Below are positions 7,913 through 20,413 of a stretch of 22,767 nt of DNA, piece after piece. The notes beneath the pieces were generated by a model. The model saw nothing but the letters and a program-made list of their open reading frames with translations. It did no database searches and was not told where the DNA came from. Position 1 is the stretch's first letter. The number at the start of each line of letters is the position of its first letter. The stretch comes from a virus: IMG/VR virus record IMGVR_UViG_3300046323_000103, positions 1 to 22,767 of that record, one strand, 5' to 3'. Both the position numbers and the translations under genes were made by a program.

Positions 7913-8239
7913 ATGGCAAATACTTTTAAATCAGTTGGTACCAACGCAATCGGTACAGTAAAAACAACCACATATACTGCGCCCTCAGTTACAACGACAA
8001 CCGTGATTGGTTTGTCGGTTGCTAATATTTTAACGACCGTTACGTCGGTTGATATTATATTGGGCAAAGGGGCTTCTGAGTTCTACATTATTAAAAACGC
8101 ACCCATTATGCCTGGCGGTACGTTGGTTGTCGTGGGTGGGGATCAGAAACTTGTACTGGAAACTGGAAATACCATCAAAGTAGTTTCCACGGTTGCTGCG
8201 TCAGTTGACGTTATCGTTTCTATCTTGGAGCTCAGTTAA
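7913..8239 (+). CDS. Small virion protein, beta-rich, cyanophage-type
   Basis: The product has 108 residues: a nearly all-beta protein with threonine- and valine-rich strands (TTTYTAPSVTTTTVIGLSVAN), a central KGASEFYIIKNAPIMPGG segment and a GGDQKLVLETGNTIKVVS segment. Proteins of this size and wording are frequent in T4-like marine phages beside tail-fibre genes and are usually annotated as structural. The shape suggests a single jelly-roll-like or Ig-like domain, which is an inference. There is no signal peptide. The upstream Shine-Dalgarno is weak (TTGGAT). The next gene starts one base after the stop codon. Confidence 0.65.
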   Translation: MANTFKSVGTNAIGTVKTTTYTAPSVTTTTVIGLSVANILTTVTSVDIILGKGASEFYIIKNAPIMPGGTLVVVGGDQKLVLETGNTIKVVSTVAASVDVIVSILELS

Positions 8240-8240
8240 T

Positions 8241-8444
8241 ATGTACTTGGGTAATCAGGTTGCGTTTTACGACCCTAACCAATCAAACACAGTTGGCAAA
8301 GATGGGTTCTACGATAACACCCAGAGTATCGCCGTTGATCATACAGTGCCTCTGGGGTTTAACTCAATGACCGCTGGCCCAGTGACGGTTGAAACGGGTG
8401 TTGTTGTTACAGTTTCTACGGGTTCTACATGGACCGTTGTCTAA
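8241..8444 (+). CDS. Small adhesin-like protein with a STWTVV C-terminus
   Basis: The product has 67 residues from the ATG at 8241, with GGAG at 8227-8230 as the ribosome site. A longer reading from a non-ATG codon at 8193 overlaps the previous gene and is rejected. The protein has an N-terminal YLGNQVAFYDPNQ segment, a middle YDNTQSIAVDHTVPLGFNSM segment and the end GPVTVETGVVVTVSTGSTWT plus VV. This ending (gain of unit, then GVxVTVxxGSTWxVV) is a recurrent phage tail-tip or fibre module, and the next protein ends with a related copy. It is probably a small tail accessory or receptor-contact protein. The assignment is by motif alone. Confidence 0.65.
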   Translation: MYLGNQVAFYDPNQSNTVGKDGFYDNTQSIAVDHTVPLGFNSMTAGPVTVETGVVVTVSTGSTWTVV

Positions 8445-8454
8445 GGGATTATAA

Positions 8455-8793
8455 ATGAGTGTATCGATAAATGGTTCGGGTGATATTTTAACCCTTAGTT
8501 CGGCAACTTTTACAGCCTCGCCCCTGGGTTCTTCAGGTGGAGCGGGTTTAGTTGGGTTTACCCCAGCGAGTGGTCTTGATGCTACTACGGTTCAAGGCGC
8601 TATTGCGGAGGTTGCTACGAGTTTGTCATCCTCTATTGGTGGTGAGGACAAAGTGTTTTTCCAGAACGGGGCTACTGTTAGTACCAGTTACACGATACCT
8701 CCTGGGTATAACGCGGGTACGTTTGGTGACGTAACCATAGCCAACGGCGCGACCGTGACTATAACAAACGGGTCTAGCTGGACTTTGGTTTAA
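8455..8793 (+). CDS. Small tail fibre-like protein related to the preceding gene
   Basis: The product has 112 residues. After a short N-terminal strand region come GLVGFTPASGLDATTVQGAI and AEVATSL, an adaptor-like stretch similar in style to the linkers of the larger fibres downstream. The C-terminal half (DKVFFQNGATVSTSYTIPPG, then VTIANGATVTITNGSSWTLV) is a second version of the terminal module seen in the 8241 gene. AAGGGA at 8443-8448 is a good Shine-Dalgarno and overlaps the upstream stop codon. The gene looks like a minimal fibre: an attachment helix joined directly to a small beta tip. The function is inferred. Confidence 0.65.
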   Translation: MSVSINGSGDILTLSSATFTASPLGSSGGAGLVGFTPASGLDATTVQGAIAEVATSLSSSIGGEDKVFFQNGATVSTSYTIPPGYNAGTFGDVTIANGATVTITNGSSWTLV

Positions 8794-8808: not shown

Positions 8809-10461
8809 ATGAGTACACTAAATGCACTGAACATAAGGGTTGGTCAATCTTCAACGCCCGCAAATAATATTACTGTCAATACGGATACTTCGGGTGATTT
8901 GGTCTTTAATAAAGGCGCTCCTGGTGCACTGACTGAGATTACCAGAATTAAGAATAACGGTGAGTTGGCGTACACCCCCGCTGGCACTGGTGCGGTTGCT
9001 ACTACGGTACAAAGTAAGCTGCGCGAGAGTGTGAGTGTTAAAGACTTTGGTGCGGTTGGGGATGGAAGTACCGATGATAGCGCAGCGATACAGGCCGCAA
9101 TTGATGCGTGTGTTTATACAGAAAGCAAACCATACAACTCGACTGTATATCTGCCTTCCGGGGTTTATAGGCTGAATAGTGGAATATTGTTAAAAAATGC
9201 AATTTCTTTGTGTGGTTCTGGTATCAGCAACACTATCATCAATGTTTATGACATTACGAACCCAGCAGTATCTTTGGAATCGTATTCAAATATAGATGGA
9301 ATCACATTCAAATACCCAAATCAAGTAATATCTGGGACGCCAATACAGTACCCACCTTGCATTTCACAAGCTGCTACGGGTGGGGGCGCAGACTATACAA
9401 AAATTTCAAATATCCGTTTTATGAGTACGTATATCGGAATCTCTTTGGGTGTAACAGGGGTTGGCGCGGGAAAAGTAACAATAGAAAACATTGACGGGTT
9501 TCCGTATAAAACAGGTATCGAGATTGACCGCTCTTACGACAATGTAAGAATCAACAACGTGCACTTTAATCCGAGTACACAGCCGTTTGGGGACGATCTA
9601 AAGAATTGGGTTTTCAATAACGGAACAGCGTTTTTACTGAAACGCGCAGATTCCCCTCAATTGAGCAACATCCTTGCATATGGCTACATGAATGGTTTAA
9701 GACTAACCAATAGCCCTATTGGAGGTGGTTCTGCCAATATGGTACAGACAACAAACTTTATTTTTGATATTTGTAAATCACCCATTGTTGTTGATGCCTG
9801 TCAAGATGGAGTTTACTTTTCAAATGGAATATGTACCAGCACAAACAACTACCTTTCATTAGGTAGTAATGGAGGTCCCTGTGGCATCGGTGGTGGAGTT
9901 GGAGATAATATTTATGTTAATTTCTCTAATGTTTCATTTAGGCATTTTTACACAGCGGCTGTAATTGCAACTGCGAATGTTTACTTTAGCAACTGTGAAT
10001 TTGACGATTTCAATTACTTAAACACTGGTGGGTTCTACGATGCAATTAACATAAATGCACATAATATTTCTGTAAATGCTTCAAATTGCAGGTTTAACAT
10101 GGAAGGTAGGTCCGGTTCTAGAGGCATTGTCAGCAACACTGGGATCACTGGCGTTAAGGTTTTTTTATCTGGCTGTGAGTTCAACGGTGCCCATGTCGAT
10201 GTACAGGATGTTTATCTTTTCGATGACACCTGTAAGTTACATGCTGCGTCTTGCTTAATGCCAAAGGGGTTTTATTGGAACGGTATATATGGTCGCCTTG
10301 TTGGTGGAAACCAATTTGGAACGTTTGCAATTCCAAATGGGGGCACTTGGGATAGGGGTGCTAGATTTTTGAATAGTTATCCCGCCGTTGGTGAGCCCAA
10401 AGGCTGGATATGCACAGTTAGCGGAACTCCCGGCACTTGGGTAAGCGAAGGCAACTTGTAA
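8809..10461 (+). CDS. Tail fibre/tailspike 1, pectate-lyase-like beta-helix
   Basis: The product has 550 residues. Residues 1-60 are an N-terminal attachment region nearly shared with fibre 3 (STLN, IGQ/VGQ, TPANNIT, GALTEI). Then GTGAVATTVQSKLRESVSVK leads into DFGAVGDG (79-86) and the DDSAAIQAAIDA signature of the pectate-lyase-3 right-handed beta-helix superfamily. This is followed by YLPSGVYRL and many short turns typical of a beta-helix. The end, GGTWDRGARFLNSYP, GEPKGWICTVSGTPGTWVSE, is a common tailspike C-terminal module. AGGGA at 8796-8800 is the ribosome site. The middle is AT-rich (20 of 60 G+C at 9181-9240, and again at 9241-9300), unlike the adaptor and neighbours, as expected for a swapped receptor-binding domain. 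Enzymatic activity on polysaccharide is possible but not shown. Confidence 0.85.
   Translation: MSTLNALNIRVGQSSTPANNITVNTDTSGDLVFNKGAPGALTEITRIKNNGELAYTPAGTGAVATTVQSKLRESVSVKDFGAVGDGSTDDSAAIQAAIDACVYTESKPYNSTVYLPSGVYRLNSGILLKNAISLCGSGISNTIINVYDITNPAVSLESYSNIDGITFKYPNQVISGTPIQYPPCISQAATGGGADYTKISNIRFMSTYIGISLGVTGVGAGKVTIENIDGFPYKTGIEIDRSYDNVRINNVHFNPSTQPFGDDLKNWVFNNGTAFLLKRADSPQLSNILAYGYMNGLRLTNSPIGGGSANMVQTTNFIFDICKSPIVVDACQDGVYFSNGICTSTNNYLSLGSNGGPCGIGGGVGDNIYVNFSNVSFRHFYTAAVIATANVYFSNCEFDDFNYLNTGGFYDAININAHNISVNASNCRFNMEGRSGSRGIVSNTGITGVKVFLSGCEFNGAHVDVQDVYLFDDTCKLHAASCLMPKGFYWNGIYGRLVGGNQFGTFAIPNGGTWDRGARFLNSYPAVGEPKGWICTVSGTPGTWVSEGNL
8989..9006 (+). repeat. 18-bp core of the fibre adaptor, copy 1
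   Basis: GGTGCGGTTGCTACTACG is identical at 8989-9006, 10780-10797 and 12554-12571. Conservation extends, with mismatches, about 60 bp further and encodes KLRESVSV(K/L)DFG. Identity at the DNA level makes it a likely homology block for recombination between the fibre genes. Confidence 0.85.
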
Positions 10462-10553
10462 TGACCACCAACAAAAAAACCACCTACACCCTATTAGCAA
10501 CCTCGCTAATCATATTCTGGTCAACCATTGTAGTAGTCCTATGCAAACTTTAA
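10461..10553 (+). CDS. 30-residue single-span membrane microprotein, copy A
   Basis: The ATG overlaps the stop codon of fibre 1 by one base (TAATG). The product starts MTTNKKTTYTLLATS and continues with a hydrophobic stretch LIIFWSTIVVVLCKL, so it is a positively charged N-terminus followed by one membrane helix. A 28-residue relative with the same design is at 13819-13905, also right after a fibre gene. The two copies differ at several codons but keep the protein pattern, which supports real translation. It overlaps the start of the next (truncated) gene by 13 nt, exactly as in the other copy. The function is unknown; a role in lysis or at the membrane is conceivable. Confidence 0.6.
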   Translation: MTTNKKTTYTLLATSLIIFWSTIVVVLCKL

Positions 10554-10603
10554 TCCAACTCCTGAAATCTCGCACCATCATCTTCACAGCTAAAGGAATA
10601 TAA
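10541..10603 (+). pseudogene. Truncated copy A of the 64-residue membrane protein gene
   Basis: The reading frame begins MQTLIQLLKSRTIIF, matching the first 15 residues of the intact gene at 12116 (MQTLVQLLKSRTIVF). It then ends after TAKGI at a stop formed in the leader of fibre 2. The coding sequence appears to have been deleted from this point to just before the ribosome site of fibre 2. The short peptide may still be made, but the two membrane helices are gone. Confidence 0.7.
10591..10602 (+). promoter_or_regulatory. Ribosome-binding leader shared by fibres 2 and 3
   Basis: TAAAGGAATATA precedes the ATG of fibre 2 (10609) and recurs unchanged at 12341-12352 before fibre 3 (12359). AAAGGA is the Shine-Dalgarno. 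The identical block marks the right-hand edge of the fibre cassette. Confidence 0.65.
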
Positions 10604-10608
10604 TTACT

Positions 10609-12105
10609 ATGGCATTAAACTTAAAATCACCGGGTGGCGCAGGAATAATCGTAAACCCAGCCCCTACCGCAGTAGATACAACACTTATTTTACCCGCTGT
10701 AAATGGAACTGTTGCGGTTGAAGAAGAATTTTCTGCTTCAGGCGGTTCAGGGTTGGTAGGGTATTTGCCGAGCGGCACTGGTGCGGTTGCTACTACGGTG
10801 CAGGGTAAGCTGAGGGAGAGTGTTAGCGTTAAGGATTTTGGCGCGGTTGGTGATGGTGTCGCAGATGACACCGCAGCAATAACGGCGGCGATTGATGCTG
10901 TGTTCAACGCTGGCGGGGGGACGGTTTATCTGCCCCCCGGAACCTATCTGGTTTCAAGCATAGTCAAAAACTGGACGGGCGCTGTAACCGTAAACATTCG
11001 TGGAGCAGGGAAGCGCGTAACAAAGTTAAAAAAGAAAACCGGAACGTTGTCACCTGTACTCGATTTTTCTGCTGATCTTTCCGTGTTGGATGTTTACTGC
11101 GAGTTCTCCGACTTTCGGATTGAAGGCAACGCCAAGACAAACAACGGCATTAGAGCAACACGGCTGGCCCGCTGGGTAATGCGGAATCTTCTTATTGAGT
11201 CGTGCGATGTTGGGCTTGATAACTTTGGCTCTCTGGTGTTTTCAGCTTACGACTGCACCATTCAATCAAACTTAATTGGATACCGCTGTGTAAAGTCCGG
11301 GACTATCCGTGCAAACCTAGTTCAATTCTTTGGTGGCCAGATTGGCGCAAATACGCTTTTTGGCATGGATATAGGCGATGCTGCTGGGGTTCACCTTTAT
11401 GGCACTGATCTCAGCGCAAACGGCACCGCAGCAAACACCGCAACGGGCGCAATCATGCTTCGCGCATCAATGGATGATGAAACAGGTTACTCATCATGCA
11501 CACTGAATAACGTGTGGTTTGAGGCCAACTACGGTATTACGCTGCAAACGGAAGCGGTAACTGGGTTGATGTTGACGTTGAAAGACGTTTTCATATCAAG
11601 CCCAGAGTCTGGCCGCGCTGCAACCATTGGGGCTATTTTCTCAAGTGAGATTACAAACACCATAGCTGGCGGTACAGGCGACACGATAACTATTGCAGCC
11701 GCTAGAAGCGTTGTAATGGGCGGAGTCATTCACACCCTCACCGATACCAGTACCCGATACAGGCATATCAATGTGGGGACTGGCGCAGACAATGTTGACG
11801 ACACATTCAAAGGCAGCATAAAGCGCCACAAGCTGGGGACGGTGGACTACCTATTTGGTCAATCCTCTCAGATCACGGGCGGTAGCGCAGACGACGTTGA
11901 GCATTACCTCTACGGGTCTGGGGAACAGAAATTTAGTGTGGGCGGGGTGAATGCGCTCCGCATTGGTGGCGGGACATTAGGTTTCTACAACGCAACCCCG
12001 GTAAACAAACAGACGGTAACTGGGGCAAAAGGAGGAAATGCAGCACTAGCAAGTCTACTGACTGCGCTGGCAAATGCAGGACTAATCACGGACAGCTCGG
12101 CTTGA
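10609..12105 (+). CDS. Tail fibre/tailspike 2, pectate-lyase-like beta-helix
   Basis: The product has 498 residues. Its first 50 residues (MALNLKSPGGAGIIVNPAPT and a TLILPAVNGTV strand) differ from fibres 1 and 3 and resemble another common phage fibre N-terminus. From residue 55 it carries the shared adaptor GTGAVATTVQGKLRESVSVK and DFGAVGDG (76-83), then DDTAAITAAIDA and GGGTVYLPPGTYL, the pectate-lyase-3 signature. A beta-helix body follows, then a C-terminal module ending GFYNATPVNKQTVTGAKGG with NAALASLLTALANAGLITDS, a very widespread fibre ending in phages. Body composition is GC-richer than in fibre 1 (34 of 60 at 11161-11220), which points to a different donor. The ribosome site is AAAGGA at 10592-10597. 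Confidence 0.85.
   Translation: MALNLKSPGGAGIIVNPAPTAVDTTLILPAVNGTVAVEEEFSASGGSGLVGYLPSGTGAVATTVQGKLRESVSVKDFGAVGDGVADDTAAITAAIDAVFNAGGGTVYLPPGTYLVSSIVKNWTGAVTVNIRGAGKRVTKLKKKTGTLSPVLDFSADLSVLDVYCEFSDFRIEGNAKTNNGIRATRLARWVMRNLLIESCDVGLDNFGSLVFSAYDCTIQSNLIGYRCVKSGTIRANLVQFFGGQIGANTLFGMDIGDAAGVHLYGTDLSANGTAANTATGAIMLRASMDDETGYSSCTLNNVWFEANYGITLQTEAVTGLMLTLKDVFISSPESGRAATIGAIFSSEITNTIAGGTGDTITIAAARSVVMGGVIHTLTDTSTRYRHINVGTGADNVDDTFKGSIKRHKLGTVDYLFGQSSQITGGSADDVEHYLYGSGEQKFSVGGVNALRIGGGTLGFYNATPVNKQTVTGAKGGNAALASLLTALANAGLITDSSA
10780..10797 (+). repeat. 18-bp core of the fibre adaptor, copy 2
   Basis: The sequence is identical to 8989-9006 and 12554-12571. The flanking match to copy 1 is especially long: about 13 upstream bases and most of the next 60 agree. 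Confidence 0.85.
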
Positions 12106-12128
12106 TATTAGTCATATGCAAACTCTAG
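12106..12128 (+). pseudogene. 3' remnant of the membrane microprotein gene, copy B
   Basis: TAGTCATATGCAAACT (12109-12124) after fibre 2 is identical to the 3' end of the microprotein gene copy at 13819-13905. In frame it reads V-I-C-K-L-stop (stop at 12126-12128). The rest of the gene is missing, so only the tail that overlaps the next start codon remains. Confidence 0.6.
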
Positions 12129-12310
12129 TCCAACTCCTAAAATCACGCACTATCGTATTCGCAATCTTGCTGGCAATCTTGCCACTGTTTGCCCAGTACA
12201 TCGGTGTGTTTAACCTCACACCAATTCAGCAAATGATTGCCTTGCAAGTTATTGCAACTATCGTAGCCATCTTGCGTGTTATCACCACTCAACCTATCTC
12301 TGAAAAATAA
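12116..12310 (+). CDS. 64-residue two-helix membrane protein, intact copy B
   Basis: The protein starts MQTLVQLLKSRTIVF. Helix 1 (about 14-32, IVFAILLAILPLFAQYIGV) and helix 2 (about 39-55, IALQVIATIVAILRV) are separated by a short loop with NLTPIQQ. It ends ITTQPISEK. Small two-span proteins ending in (L)R(V/F)xTTxPxxEK are common in aquatic phages, often annotated as hypothetical or holin-like. This is the only complete copy in the window; 5' fragments of the same gene follow fibre 1 (10541) and fibre 3 (13893). The charge pattern (Lys/Arg before helix 1, Lys at the end) suits an inner-membrane protein. A lysis-related role is possible but unproven. Confidence 0.7.
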   Translation: MQTLVQLLKSRTIVFAILLAILPLFAQYIGVFNLTPIQQMIALQVIATIVAILRVITTQPISEK

Positions 12311-12324
12311 TAACACCCCTAATA

Positions 12325-12332
12325 GTTAAATA
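12325..12332 (+). promoter_or_regulatory. Late-promoter-like octamer GTTAAATA before fibre 3
   Basis: The octamer lies 26 nt before the ATG of fibre 3, in the short gap after the 64-residue membrane gene and upstream of the AAAGGA ribosome site. It is the same octamer as at 5302, 14203 and 22410. Confidence 0.6.
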
Positions 12333-12358
12333 ACAATAACTAAAGGAATATACAAAAT

Positions 12359-13816
12359 ATGAGTACATTAAACTCTTCAAACATACAAATCGGCCAGTCA
12401 ATAACGCCTGCAAATAATATCACTTTAAACACGGCGGTCAATGGTGACTTGGTTGTGAGTAAGGGTGCGCAAGGTGCGTTGACTGAGATTAGTCGTATTA
12501 GTAATTCGGGATTGATGGATTCTAGTAAGGTTGGATATTTTCCTGCGGGGGTGGGTGCGGTTGCTACTACGATGCAGAGTAAGTTGCGGGAGAGTGTTAG
12601 CGTGTTGGACTTTGGAGTAAATGCCATTCCCGGTACTACTGATATGACCCTCGCCTTCAATCTGGCACTTGAGGCATATAGCTTACATAAGACAGTACGA
12701 GTTCCTGCGGGTATATATCTGATAACGGGGACACTTAATCTTGGAATAAATAAAAAACTAATTGGGGATTCCTCAAACAGCACTGTTATCAAGTTTAATT
12801 CCACAGATTCCTACTGTATTACAGGCGATGCATACACCAAGATAGAAGGCATTACGGTGCAGAAGTTAAGCGCTGGGGTTGCTACTGGTATCGCAAGTTA
12901 TACACCTACAGACGCTAATGGCTTTAGAAACGGCAGTCTTAAAGACGTAGTGATTATTGACTTTAACGTAGGCATTGGAAGCACTCGCGGCATTGCTGCT
13001 GGGCTGATGTTCAACAATACCTATGAGAGCGTGAGCATTTATAACGCCACTACAGGCGTTCAAATGGGTGCAGGTTCTAACACCAACACTTTTATCAATT
13101 GCTCATTCTGGAATTGTGGCAACCCATTGCAGTTGAATAATGTTACTTCACAGATTTTCATTGGCTGTAACTTCGAGAACTCTACGAACTACGACTTTAC
13201 TGTAGATGCTGGGTATAACATAGTATTTAAGTCGTGTTACTTTGAGCCTGCTACTGGTGGGGTATTCAGCGACTCTACTGGAGCATTTACTGATTGCCAC
13301 AGCACTGATTTTAAGACACCAACTACTCAGTTTGTAACGTACAGCAGCAACTCGACTATCAGCATTAGAGATTTCACCGACTACAACTTAGGCAGCGCAG
13401 CTAGTTATGTTACTCAGTGGTATGCACGAAGCGGTGACGGTACTGGGTATGCCAGCAAAAGCAATCTGCGAGTTCGTGCGGGCACTGCAAAAGCTGATGA
13501 GATTACAACCCCTGTAACTCCTTATGGTCCATATACAGGCTCGGTGTCCTTAGCTAATACAGCAACACAAACAATCGTTGATATGGCTGGTGCACCAGTT
13601 GGTAGGTACGAAGTCTTTGCTGCAATCCCTGCATCTGGAAGTCCAGTTAACTATGCAGCCTTTGCTACGGTGATGTGGGACACATCTTCTGCGCGGATTG
13701 TTGCAAATAACGGCGGTGCAGTAACCATTTCTTTGTCGGGAACAGCCGTAATTGTTACTAACGGGACGGGTTCCACATTTACGTTCAACTACGGATACTT
13801 ACGCATTGGTGCGTGA
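12359..13816 (+). CDS. Tail fibre/tailspike 3, beta-helix type
   Basis: The product has 485 residues. The N-terminus is clearly paralogous to fibre 1 over about 60 residues (STLN, NIQIGQ, TPANNIT, GALTEISRI). The adaptor GVGAVATTMQSKLRESVSVL and DFG follows, but the GAVGDG signature is altered to VNAIPGTTD. VRVPAGIYLITGTLNLG and later NCSFWNCGN, GCNFENSTNYDF and KSCYFEPATGG have the rhythm of a right-handed beta-helix. The last ~100 residues (GSVSLANTATQTIVDMAG onward) change to a compact beta-sandwich-like domain, possibly for trimerisation or receptor contact. The gene has its own late-promoter-like site and an AAAGGA ribosome site. Catalytic residues cannot be assigned. The fibre identity is secure; the receptor is unknown. 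Confidence 0.8.
   Translation: MSTLNSSNIQIGQSITPANNITLNTAVNGDLVVSKGAQGALTEISRISNSGLMDSSKVGYFPAGVGAVATTMQSKLRESVSVLDFGVNAIPGTTDMTLAFNLALEAYSLHKTVRVPAGIYLITGTLNLGINKKLIGDSSNSTVIKFNSTDSYCITGDAYTKIEGITVQKLSAGVATGIASYTPTDANGFRNGSLKDVVIIDFNVGIGSTRGIAAGLMFNNTYESVSIYNATTGVQMGAGSNTNTFINCSFWNCGNPLQLNNVTSQIFIGCNFENSTNYDFTVDAGYNIVFKSCYFEPATGGVFSDSTGAFTDCHSTDFKTPTTQFVTYSSNSTISIRDFTDYNLGSAASYVTQWYARSGDGTGYASKSNLRVRAGTAKADEITTPVTPYGPYTGSVSLANTATQTIVDMAGAPVGRYEVFAAIPASGSPVNYAAFATVMWDTSSARIVANNGGAVTISLSGTAVIVTNGTGSTFTFNYGYLRIGA
12554..12571 (+). repeat. 18-bp core of the fibre adaptor, copy 3
   Basis: The sequence is identical to 8989-9006 and 10780-10797. The downstream match is shorter here because the sequence diverges after the DFG codons. 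Confidence 0.85.
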
Positions 13817-13818
13817 CT

Positions 13819-13905
13819 ATGACCAACAAAACCACTTACACCCTATTAGCAACATCGCTAATAATTTTCTGGTCAACCATTGGAATAGTCATATGCAAAC
13901 TGTAA
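13819..13905 (+). CDS. 28-residue single-span membrane microprotein, copy C
   Basis: The gene starts two bases after the stop codon of fibre 3. The product begins MTNKTTYTLLATSLIIFWST and ends IGIVICKL. Compared with copy A (10461) it lacks two residues near the N-terminus and differs by a few conservative changes in the hydrophobic helix (IVVVL to IGIVI), with additional synonymous differences. Its last 13 bases overlap the ATG of the truncated membrane gene, as in copy A. Preservation of the frame, the helix and the overlap argues that the pair is a functional unit and not chance. Confidence 0.6.
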   Translation: MTNKTTYTLLATSLIIFWSTIGIVICKL

Positions 13906-13940
13906 TCCAACTCCTTAAATCCCGCGAATGTACCCACTAA
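13893..13940 (+). pseudogene. Truncated copy C of the 64-residue membrane protein gene
   Basis: The frame begins MQTVIQLLKSR like the intact gene at 12116, then departs after the CGC arginine codon into ECTH and a stop. Homology is lost at almost the same codon as in copy A. The membrane helices are absent. Its last 13 bases overlap the ATG of the following reading frame. Confidence 0.65.
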
Positions 13941-14146
13941 CCTTCTACGTCAAATCACTCCCACCTGATGTTGGTGGCCGCGCCAATGGTCCAGTTATTC
14001 GTATAATGGAAAAGTACCGCCACGACAAAGGCATCTACCGCCACGAACTTATGAACTTAAACCAAACAACAACAATCCAAAATTTCATCAGCTTAATATC
14101 TAAACTAAAAACGATAAAATACAAACCGTTTACGATGATGACGTAA
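13928..14146 (+). CDS. Hypothetical 72-residue protein, possible truncated peptidase-like gene
   Basis: The frame reads MYPLTFYVKSLPPDVGGRAN, then GPVIRIMEKYRHDKGIYRHE and LMN, and ends in a lysine/threonine-rich tail. The first ~46 residues look like the start of small phage proteins in which such a sequence leads to an HExxH zinc-binding motif (typically HELxHVKQ). Here the motif is HELMN, with Asn in place of the second His, and what follows (LNQTTTIQNFISLISKLKTI) is AT-rich and unlike a protein core. I infer a gene fragment or a decayed copy. It overlaps the preceding gene remnant by 13 nt. The resemblance is from memory and is not verified. Confidence 0.4.
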   Translation: MYPLTFYVKSLPPDVGGRANGPVIRIMEKYRHDKGIYRHELMNLNQTTTIQNFISLISKLKTIKYKPFTMMT

Positions 14147-14238: not shown

Positions 14239-15126
14239 ATGTCATATATAGGCTACTCGGGCGCAACCGCAAATATCCAAAAACTGGACACTCTGGTGTT
14301 TTCTCCGGGCGCGGACTACTATACCCGAGTAAATGGTACGTTGATATCTATTAACTCAGCGTCATCCGTAATTATTTCGGTTGGCGGGGTTATACTAGAG
14401 CCGTTTACTGATTATAATGTTGTGTCTTCTAGAATCTACTTCGCCCAAGACCCTACACCAGGACTATCGTTCTTTGGTATCTCATTGGGTAAATCTATCG
14501 ACATTGGCGTACCTAGTGATAACTCTGTTACAAATTCAAAAATAGCCGGTCCGGTCTCAATCGCCAAGGGCGGTACTGGGGCTTCTACGGCAGACTCTGC
14601 GCTATCCTCGCTGGGTGGCGGTAGCGTGGGTATTTCAGTATTCAAATCACCCGACGCTACGGCCATTAGAACCCAGTTGAACTTGGGTTCGGCGGCGATA
14701 AAGAACGCAGGTACACTGGCTAATAATGTATTACTTTTGGCGGATAATAATAAACTTCCTGTACTTGATGGTTCTAACCTAACTAACCTCCCAGTTATAG
14801 GCGGTGGCGGAACGGGTAGTATCGGTGTTGGTCAGACATGGGTAAGCGTACTGGGTTCTAGAAACCTAGGAACTTCTTACTACAACGCCAGCGCACAACC
14901 AATTATGGTATCAGTATCGGGATCGGGCTCTAGCACCTCTTCCCCAGGAACAATTCAAGCCACTTGTAATGGCGTAGTCGTGGGTCAGGCTTTTACTAGC
15001 GTTTACTCGGGTACTTGGACGGCGGCTCGCGGGTTTGTATCCTTTATAGTTCCTCCGGCGGGTAGTTACTCGGTTTCAGAAATAGGCGCGGGTTCGACCG
15101 TAACCGTTTGGTCTGAGCTTAGATAA
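14239..15126 (+). CDS. Tail fibre protein, GGTGAST-type
   Basis: The product has 295 residues. The N-terminal ~90 residues form a beta-rich attachment domain (TLVFSPGADYYTRVNGTLIS, VGGVILEPFTDYNVVSSRIY) seen in T4-like aquatic phages. ITN-like linkers follow, with SIAKGGTGASTADSALSSLG at ~107-126, a hallmark of phage tail fibres. The segment DGSNLTNLP comes next, and a C-terminal domain of about 100 residues begins at GVGQTWVSVLGSRNLGTSYY, another recurrent fibre-tip module. There is no beta-helix here, so this fibre is built differently from the three upstream. The ribosome site is weak (GAAAGAAC). The small gene that follows is probably its partner or chaperone. Confidence 0.8.
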   Translation: MSYIGYSGATANIQKLDTLVFSPGADYYTRVNGTLISINSASSVIISVGGVILEPFTDYNVVSSRIYFAQDPTPGLSFFGISLGKSIDIGVPSDNSVTNSKIAGPVSIAKGGTGASTADSALSSLGGGSVGISVFKSPDATAIRTQLNLGSAAIKNAGTLANNVLLLADNNKLPVLDGSNLTNLPVIGGGGTGSIGVGQTWVSVLGSRNLGTSYYNASAQPIMVSVSGSGSSTSSPGTIQATCNGVVVGQAFTSVYSGTWTAARGFVSFIVPPAGSYSVSEIGAGSTVTVWSELR

Positions 15127-18409: not shown

Positions 18410-18886
18410 ATGACACAAAATATCCAAACAAAACTACCTCGAGGATCCGATAGAAGATCTACAGATAGGAGAAATATTCGTAGACCTATTAAAAGCCGTT
18501 ATCGTATCGTTAGACTTTATGTGACAATATCCATAATACTGTCGATACTTTCAATACTATTTGAACCCGCTTCTATTCACGCCCAAGTCGTAGGGTCTGC
18601 TAATTTACCAATTGCGCTATTTTATACCGCGTTGGGTGTTGGGTTTGTTGCGTTGTTAGATATTTTTATCAACGATATTCTCCCTAATAAATACAGCTTT
18701 AAACAGGCATATCTTTATAGACATTTGATCTATATGAGTTTGTCGCTAATTTCGTTCTCGCTATCAGCAGGGCTTCTAATAACTTTCAGTGGGTCTATTC
18801 TTGTGGGTAGGTTGTGGTTGGATGGGGTTGTGGCTGCGACGGTTGCGGTTTTAGATATATTTGCAAGGCATAGGAATAAGACATGA
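18410..18886 (+). CDS. Arg-rich four-span membrane protein
   Basis: The product has 158 residues. A strongly basic N-terminal tail of about 35 residues (PRGSDRRSTDRRNIRRP) precedes likely membrane spans at ~36-53, 66-88, 105-126 and 131-150. The basic tail should stay in the cytoplasm. I recognise no family. Its stop codon overlaps the ATG of the next membrane-protein gene (ATGA at 18883), so the two are probably translated together. Position in front of a holin candidate and a lysozyme suggests a lysis role, perhaps regulator or accessory holin; this is inferred only. Confidence 0.6.
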   Translation: MTQNIQTKLPRGSDRRSTDRRNIRRPIKSRYRIVRLYVTISIILSILSILFEPASIHAQVVGSANLPIALFYTALGVGFVALLDIFINDILPNKYSFKQAYLYRHLIYMSLSLISFSLSAGLLITFSGSILVGRLWLDGVVAATVAVLDIFARHRNKT

Positions 18887-19296
18887 CTCTAAGGTACGTT
18901 CTGGTAATATTGAAAATGGTCATAGCGATGCTATGGCCTATTACTGTTTCTGCGGCAGTAGTCACGGGCGCAGTTGACCCATTTATCGGTATTACTGGGA
19001 TGCACGTTTTAGTGCTGAGTATTATCTCTACGCTCTCCGGCCTCACCGCGCTTACTATTAGGATTGATAGTGAGTTGAAGCAAGCCGAGAACAATACGTT
19101 ATCTAGACCTACGCTATTTGTATCGTCTCATATGCTAGGGTCTTGGCTTGCAGGGGTGCTCGCAGTTGCAGTTTCTCAGATTAACAATTTCTCCGTTTGG
19201 TCTCAAATATCCATTGTTATTGCAGCATCATTTTCGGGTGCAAAGTTTGTCGAGAAAATATCTGAATTTTATGTTGGTAAGGTTACTAAGGAATAA
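18883..19296 (+). CDS. Multi-span membrane protein, possible LydA-like holin
   Basis: The product has 137 residues with probable spans at ~5-30, 40-58, 78-98 and 107-120, and a short charged C-terminus (GKVTKE). The second half, MLGSWLAGVLAVAVSQINNF followed by SIVIAASFSGAKFVEKISEF, resembles holin superfamily III (LydA-type) proteins, which have a similar SxxAG and SGxxG arrangement. It overlaps the preceding gene by 4 nt, and the next gene starts three bases after its stop with AAGGA at 19288-19292. The holin call is tentative because the following gene is also a good candidate; one could be holin and the other antiholin. Confidence 0.45.
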   Translation: MTLRYVLVILKMVIAMLWPITVSAAVVTGAVDPFIGITGMHVLVLSIISTLSGLTALTIRIDSELKQAENNTLSRPTLFVSSHMLGSWLAGVLAVAVSQINNFSVWSQISIVIAASFSGAKFVEKISEFYVGKVTKE

Positions 19297-19299
19297 TTT

Positions 19300-19848
19300 A
19301 TGTTGACTATTTTAGCTGCTATCCTGGGTTTTGCAGGACCATTTATCCCCGAGTTGATTAAAATCTTCCGGTCTAAACAAGACAACGCACATGAGCTCGC
19401 GATGATGGAGTTACAGGCCAAGAACGCCGAGAAAGCACACTTGTATAAGGTTGAAGAGTTGAATTTGAATGCTGATATTAACGAAGCACAAATTATCCGT
19501 CAACCCCAGACATCGTTTGGTGTGCAGGTATTGGATGCGGCCAAAGATTGGCCCAAACTTATTGTTGTTCCTATATTTTACCTGTTCGCGCTCCTGGATT
19601 TTTTCACGGGTATGGTGCGCCCAGTAATCACGTATTCCGTTGTAGGGTTTTACTTCTTCTACAAGTGGGCGCTTTATGAGTTGGCTTTAAAGGGTGCGGA
19701 TGGGGTTTGGCAAGTTGCACTATCCACCTCTTGGGGTGAGTCTGACTGGGCGCTGCTTTTGTCTACAGTGTCTTACTGGTTTGGTTCGAGAATCGTGAAA
19801 AGTCAGTTCGGCGGTTCAGCTAATACAGGAAAACCCGGTGGCGGCTAA
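19300..19848 (+). CDS. Putative holin, 3TM (GTA-holin-like) family
   Basis: The product has 182 residues. An N-terminal hydrophobic helix (MLTILAAILGFAGPFIPELI) is followed by a soluble coiled-coil-like stretch (~26-66, rich in E, K, A and L). Three hydrophobic segments come next (~86-104, 108-130 and 149-163). The order and phrases such as FFTGMVRPVITYSVVGFYFF and a WFGSR near the C-terminus match the holin-of-3TMs family found in phages and gene transfer agents. The end is a Gly-rich tail. Directly next to a lysozyme gene, this protein is the most likely pore former that releases the enzyme across the inner membrane. Confidence 0.7.
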   Translation: MLTILAAILGFAGPFIPELIKIFRSKQDNAHELAMMELQAKNAEKAHLYKVEELNLNADINEAQIIRQPQTSFGVQVLDAAKDWPKLIVVPIFYLFALLDFFTGMVRPVITYSVVGFYFFYKWALYELALKGADGVWQVALSTSWGESDWALLLSTVSYWFGSRIVKSQFGGSANTGKPGGG

Positions 19849-19852
19849 TTAA

Positions 19853-20413
19853 ATGGTATTCACCAAAGCATTATCGGCTCTTAAAGAGCCCTTTAAACAA
19901 CAACCCGAAGCCGCAGTGCCTATGACTGCTTCGGGTGTTCGCCGTGTGCCGGATTTTATTGTTGCGATGCTTATTAAGTTTGAGGGTATGGCCAAGCGCG
20001 GCGCTGATGGGTTGATATATCCGTATCACGACGTGGTTGGGTTTCCTACTATTGGGGTGGGTCATTTGTTGTCTAGAGAAAAGTGGGAAGACTTATCAAA
20101 ATACCCACCTATTACCGAAGCAGAAGCGTATGCTCTTAAATATAAAGACTTAGACCGTTTTGCTGTAGGGGTTTGTTCCTTGGTAAAGTGTAATATAAAC
20201 GATAATGAGTTTGGCGCATTGGTAATGCTTGCGTTTAATATTGGCCTGGGTAATTTAAAGAACTCTACGCTTCTGAGGAAACTAAACCGTGGCGACTCTC
20301 GGGAAGAAGTTGGAGCCGAGTTTTTAAAGTGGGATAAAGCGCAGGGTCAAAAAATTAGAGGATTGACGATTCGCAGAACTTTGGAGATGAAGGTGTTTCT
20401 AACACCTTGTTAA
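19853..20413 (+). CDS. Endolysin, T4-type lysozyme (GH24)
   Basis: The product has 186 residues. It cleaves peptidoglycan glycan strands. Candidate catalytic residues are E44 (in IKFEGM), D60 (PYHD) and T66 (GFPTIGVGH). The Asp-Thr spacing equals that of T4 lysozyme (D20-T26), but the Glu-Asp distance is 16 residues instead of nine because of an added KRGADGLI loop. The helical C-terminal domain contains FGALVMLAFNIGLGNLKNST and FLKWDKAQGQKIRGLTIRRT, typical for GH24. Residues 1-30 form an extra N-terminal segment without a clear signal peptide, so export through the holin is likely. It lies four bases after the holin gene and one base before gp14. Confidence 0.85.
   Translation: MVFTKALSALKEPFKQQPEAAVPMTASGVRRVPDFIVAMLIKFEGMAKRGADGLIYPYHDVVGFPTIGVGHLLSREKWEDLSKYPPITEAEAYALKYKDLDRFAVGVCSLVKCNINDNEFGALVMLAFNIGLGNLKNSTLLRKLNRGDSREEVGAEFLKWDKAQGQKIRGLTIRRTLEMKVFLTPC

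Follow-up and report, generated by a model that had tools for sequence, protein, structure and literature searches.

Classic work on lambdoid phages found that mosaic joints carry short conserved boundary sequences, and in phage T4 the fibre genes 37 and 38 are followed by the holin gene t. The Alteromonas phages A5, V22, and P24, which are distantly related, have host-recognition modules in common (PMC10579305), and short common sequences at gene borders have been suggested to serve as targets where otherwise different genomes undergo homologous recombination (PMC3029335, PMC6466182). When unrelated phages exchange fibres, usually only the outcome is visible; at the locus described here the joints can be read, as two named anchors, repeated stubs with a near-identical break, and the same joint across phage types.

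The stretch of DNA analysed (the window) is a 22,767-base virus record of a T4-type myovirus; relatives of its neck protein (17440) number in the hundreds among T4-like phages, those of Synechococcus, Pelagibacter, and Methylophilales included. Its fibre island is made up of three beta-helix tail-fibre genes matching PF12708: fibre 1, of the pectate-lyase type (ORF 8809..10461, E 3e-19), fibre 2 (10609..12105, E 2e-18), and fibre 3 (12359..13816, E 2e-10). The fibres, the small genes behind them, the anchors within them, and the phage's own lysis genes are all on the plus strand. The latter comprise a holin-like gene (18883..19296; phrog_785 holin, E 6e-4), retained in loci L140, L141, L142, and L144, and a lysozyme (19853..20413; PF00959, E 1e-32), and both genes (18883-20413) are retained in relatives. 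Three successive small, partly membrane-type genes occupy 18410-19848 upstream of the lysozyme, one of them holin-like by PHROG 785. At 8193-8441 and 8455-8790, two neighbouring small genes are paralogs (36% aa identity), and the second of them, along with the beginning of fibre 1, has 64–67% nt identity to contigs L011 and L050. Relatives of the gene at 14239 were sought and none was confirmed.

Behind each fibre gene lies one copy of an overlapping gene pair, consisting of a gene for a 28–30-residue microprotein with one hydrophobic helix (mic) and a gene for a 64-residue holin-like protein (hol64). Copy A has an intact mic (10461..10553), encoding 30 aa with one hydrophobic helix, and its ATG at 10461 overlaps the fibre-1 stop as TAATG. 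The accompanying hol64 is a stub, the ORF MQTLIQLLKSRTIIFTAKGI plus a stop codon (10541..10603), with homology reaching codon ~15 (~10588) before it is joined to the fibre-2 leader. Copy B retains the codons VICKL and the stop of mic (12111..12128), with homology to L003 and L004 starting at 12109, followed by an intact hol64 of 64 aa (12116..12310). Copy C combines an intact mic of 28 aa (13819..13905) with an 11-codon hol64 stub, the ORF MQTVIQLLKSRECTH plus a stop codon (13893..13940), in which homology extends up to 13925 and whose stop overlaps the start of the next gene (13928). By blastn, A and C are homologous over 102 nt (89%, E 1e-32), A and B over 58 nt (83%, E 3e-10), and B and C over 40 nt (90%, E 1e-8); the likeness among the three junctions is not chance.

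The coordinates bear out what the initial annotation had reported for each copy: an intact 30-residue microprotein and a second gene cut at about 15 codons in A, the last five microprotein codons and an intact 64-residue gene in B, and a 28-residue microprotein with a second gene cut at about 11 codons (13893-13925) in C, together with the sequence TAGTCATATGCAAACT, identical between B and C. Its summary was mistaken on two points. Each unit was said to have lost a different half, but A and C both lack the 3′ part of hol64; one intact gene of each kind was said to be left, but the intact genes are two mic and one hol64.

A fourth broken gene had been missed. Copy C runs directly into the 5′ remnant of a 138-aa HExxH peptidase-like gene (13928..14146), of which ~42 codons remain, to ~14053, with the cut inside the motif between HELM and N. 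The window copy accordingly reads HELMN, without the HExxH motif, and totals 72 aa versus 138, while the intact relatives in L052 and L054 read HELMH and HELEH; the L052 protein corresponds to phrog_13761 (E 1e-21). In cultured Alteromonas and Rheinheimera phages, of which one record each was examined, the peptidase relatives sit outside fibre–mic–hol64 contexts. At L009:3772-3905, a 22-codon peptidase stub is followed by a hol64 stub without a start codon, forming nested scars of two downstream genes, and from L111:4184 onward an 87-aa HERKH protein lies directly behind an intact hol64 with a short overlap, its sequence unlike that of the window's peptidase family.

Viral contigs contain 159 hol64 relatives in all, 13 of them close to the copy B protein (81–94% aa identity), and of the 72 distinct sites inspected, most have a long fibre-like ORF immediately upstream. 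In a scan of genome contigs, two relatives were also found in metagenome-assembled bacterial bins, each with a fibre-sized ORF upstream. The initial annotation had proposed looking for the intact pair next to a single fibre gene, and this arrangement was found in unrelated phage contigs (L003, L004, and L007), with the same overlap and directly behind one fibre, which supports its idea of an ancestral two-gene unit. More divergent intact pairs sit behind single fibres in L018, L020, L026, L033, L035, L046, and L051. The pair is thus a long-standing unit that accompanies fibre genes. It also occurs in part, as hol64 directly behind a fibre without mic (L005, L008, L011) or as mic without an intact hol64 (L054, L055).

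Every contig carrying a close copy is metagenomic, and neighbouring IMG sample numbers suggest that the closest ones come from one habitat. L008 and L050, which lie on one contig, accompany a T7-type terminase, and L013 a T4-type clamp loader. In this second T4-type carrier the pair has also decayed (L013:5926-6153): a TGG-to-TAG change puts a stop inside mic, and hol64 ends at codon 50. L053, on the same contig as L070:4001-6009, has two hol64 genes that are intact but divergent (61% and 50% to that of the window), and a separate fibre gene precedes each of them. A 72-aa mini-fibre precedes hol64 at L011:5786-6004, in which a fibre-2-type N-terminus is fused to a fibre-2-type C-terminus and the whole beta-helix is missing.

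The joints recur in other phages. Joint A, which leads from the stub through the TTCACAGCTAAAGGAAT leader into fibre 2, is present in L050, and there the intact, mic-less hol64 of L008 comes after the fibre-2-type gene, giving the A-plus-B layout of the window minus the five mic codons of B. Joint C, at which the stub leads into the peptidase and overlaps its start, is also found in L052, before an intact peptidase gene. In a third joint the stub leads into the MNPYSRR gene (L055, L009), and in a fourth into the MNDFQ gene (L022, L032, L039). Relatives of these last two genes sit behind intact hol64 in L132 and in L104 and L135, so the stubs are hol64 genes minus the 3′ part. L004, with an intact pair, and L050, with mic and a stub, belong to different phages and are 97.3% identical up to the break. 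A direction-neutral profile search of the second loci set and the window returned N-terminal stubs only (four distinct joints versus no C-terminal one); the remaining stubs came from a 5′-pattern search and are therefore unusable for comparing the two ends, and a pattern for the hol64 3′ end was too strict, missing even known members, and is uninformative on 3′ stubs. The initial annotation attributed the stubs to deletions. This stands for the loss of the hol64 3′ part, as seen from L132, L104, and L135, but not for a local origin of joints A and C, which are common to unrelated contigs and were therefore probably imported ready-made.

Could mic and the stubs instead be independent small genes that function as they are, with nothing broken? 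The mic family is under purifying selection (pooled pN/pS 0.37), and its occurrence without an intact hol64 in L054 and L055 would agree with this. However, the stubs diverge after codon 11–17, have lost both membrane helices, and run into unrelated leaders, their C-terminus is unconserved, and the mic of L013 contains an internal stop. We regard this reading as very improbable.

The DNA common to the window and the unrelated carriers is limited to the N-terminal GAVATTVQSKLRESVSVKDFGAVGDG segment of the fibres, mic/hol64/peptidase, and the ends of fibre 2; in L011 and L050, the immediate flanks of the GAVATTVQSKLRESVSVKDFGAVGDG segment are shared as well. This segment forms the 5′ anchor of fibre 1 (8971..9086), which is 84–97% identical in nucleotides to L003, L004, L013, L055, and others, with L055 (90%) the closest among the matches listed. 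The anchor of fibre 2 (10774..10879) matches L003 at 91.5% across 106 nt and fibre 1 at 81%, and that of fibre 3 (12554..12615) is 87% identical both to L055 and to fibre 2. Window proteins outside the fibre island have no relative in these carriers except for a 32% lysozyme in L008/L011. Short sequences common to otherwise unrelated genomes are thus found at the module borders, as expected of mosaic boundaries.

These comparisons bear on how the island arose. The initial annotation proposed local tandem duplication of one fibre–mic–hol64 unit followed by independent deletions. One genome does hold three copies, A and C are 89% identical over 102 nt, and the two could be sisters, as a tree of 107 columns gives a joint A+C clade a p-AU of 0.14, so that the clade is neither backed nor rejected. 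Against this, copy C is nearer to L013 (90.0%, across mic and 11 hol64 codons) than to A (86.4%), the fibre-1 and fibre-2 anchors are nearer to other phages than to each other, and joints A and C are found in unrelated phages. The pair is also absent from myovirus relatives covering the region: mic, hol64, and peptidase had no match before the neck gene in L142 and L143, whose neck protein is 64–67% identical and which have other fibre regions, or in the cultured phage BUCT-ZZ01; the closer L140 and L141 end short of the fibre region. The window copies resemble one another no more than they resemble those of unrelated phages, so local duplication with the fibre genes is not supported, and we consider it quite unlikely.

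We instead favour, as the likely though far from certain explanation, that the island consists of fibre cassettes imported by recombination at two anchors, with redundant lysis-type genes hitchhiking and decaying. A cassette would comprise a fibre gene and the translationally coupled mic and hol64, followed, depending on the carrier, by peptidase, spanin-like, or endolysin genes. Recombination between two short common sequences would let unrelated phages exchange the part that recognizes the host; these sequences are the conserved N-terminal segment of the fibre and the segment just behind it that contains mic and the start of hol64. Each acquisition would leave the 5′ end of a downstream gene, hol64 or the peptidase, as a stub fused to the next module. 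Membrane genes that hitchhike into this T4-type phage, already equipped with a holin-like gene and a lysozyme, would probably be redundant and decay. Homologous recombination at the anchors, translational coupling, a holin function of hol64, and redundancy are what we infer from the sequences; the short anchors could also be leftovers of illegitimate events rather than recombination sites. The idea that the island records the gain of fibre cassettes, already put forward in the initial annotation, is supported.

The 5′ end of hol64 is conserved in DNA beyond what coding requires. Across the intact family, identical synonymous codons at positions 6-11 reach 0.505 versus 0.351 expected and drop after codon 11; because of relatedness the z values (9 and below) are too high, and the evidence lies in the contrast along the gene. 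A weaker rise occurs at codons 55-64. An overlapping upstream frame was rejected as the cause, since the signal remains in genes without overlap. An RNA element was rejected as well, as there was no Rfam match, the core was mostly unpaired, and the folding energy equalled that of shuffles. A reused recombination boundary would explain both the 5′-only stubs and the conservation of codons 6-11. In its broadest form, the first 33-50 nt of hol64 would be a community-wide fibre-splicing boundary for T4-type and T7-terminase-type phages, with the DNA kept for recombination and not for the protein alone, a proposal that we advance as speculative and unlikely.

Another reading is that the hol64 5′ end is a dedicated site for a recombinase that inserts fibre cassettes. 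Four or more distinct joints break within hol64 codons 11-17, and the synonymous conservation peaks at codons 6-11, both of which fit such a site. Yet the joint ends differ by up to ~6 codons, RNA structure is absent, no inverted repeat was seen by eye, and no recombinase was noticed in the window; a dedicated site is accordingly very unlikely.

The stubs may also have been kept as working relays, short ORFs that, as mic may also do, pass ribosomes from the fibre message to the next gene. The stub stop overlaps the next start or lies within 5 nt of it at window joints A and C, L050, L052, and L022, most stubs retain their ATG, no Shine-Dalgarno is visible before the peptidase start in window copy C and L052, and among 48 intact hol64 genes just 19 are preceded by one. 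However, fibre 2 has its own AAAGGA, the L009 stub lacks an ATG, and stops near the next start are frequent by chance after a deletion. We view relays as a tentative and somewhat doubtful reading, compatible with imported cassettes and not opposed to them, and it may be a second reason why the 5′ end is what remains.

The intact hol64 plausibly acts in the manner of a small holin. The AlphaFold 2 model places helices at 11-27 and 36-58 over the hydrophobic stretches (pLDDT 80), giving a 64-aa protein with at least one predicted transmembrane helix. The second gene downstream of hol64 in L003-L007 is of the M15-peptidase type (PF08291, 3e-16 for L003), placing hol64 near an endolysin-type gene there; in the window fibre 3 comes next. 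Searches of curated holin families gave no significant match (PHROG 297 at only E 0.08, no NCBIfam match, none significant in Pfam), nor did a fold search in viral structures, and because no curated holin model matched, we do not file hol64 as a holin. That mic assists or antagonizes hol64 is a guess. Given the phage's own holin-like gene and lysozyme, retained in relatives, the imported pair is probably redundant in this phage. With these genes present and two mic genes left, selection to keep one of each membrane gene, as suggested in the initial annotation, is not supported.

For annotation, these results carry a warning that short ORFs behind fibres may be scraps of lysis genes. Such scraps record the trading among phages of the parts that choose the bacterial host. 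The anchor and stub sequences can be used in crossover experiments and as a metagenome search handle for recent fibre transfers.

Set beside the described systems, the island resembles A5, V22, and P24, in which a fibre module is common to morphologically different phages and the rest of the genome is without homology (PMC10579305). In those phages, however, the module is a fibre with a chaperone, whereas here membrane or lysis-type genes stand behind the fibre and stubs mark the joints. As with T4 gene t, a holin-like gene directly follows fibre genes; unlike the T4 holin, hol64 is a 64-aa two-helix protein and had no T4 holin family match in the libraries searched. Its size, charged N-terminal part, two hydrophobic helices, and endolysin nearby in L003-L007 recall small two-helix holins, but its similarity to one such family, PHROG 297, is only that noted above, and a gene annotated as holin in MW202825 is 40% identical to it. 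Unlike known mosaic boundaries, this one lies in coding sequence, at the 5′ end of a holin-like gene; it recurs in the same genome and is common to different phage types. Phage mosaicism itself is already known; this locus adds a concrete boundary that falls within a lysis-type gene, shows repeated scars, and is common to T4-type and T7-terminase phages.
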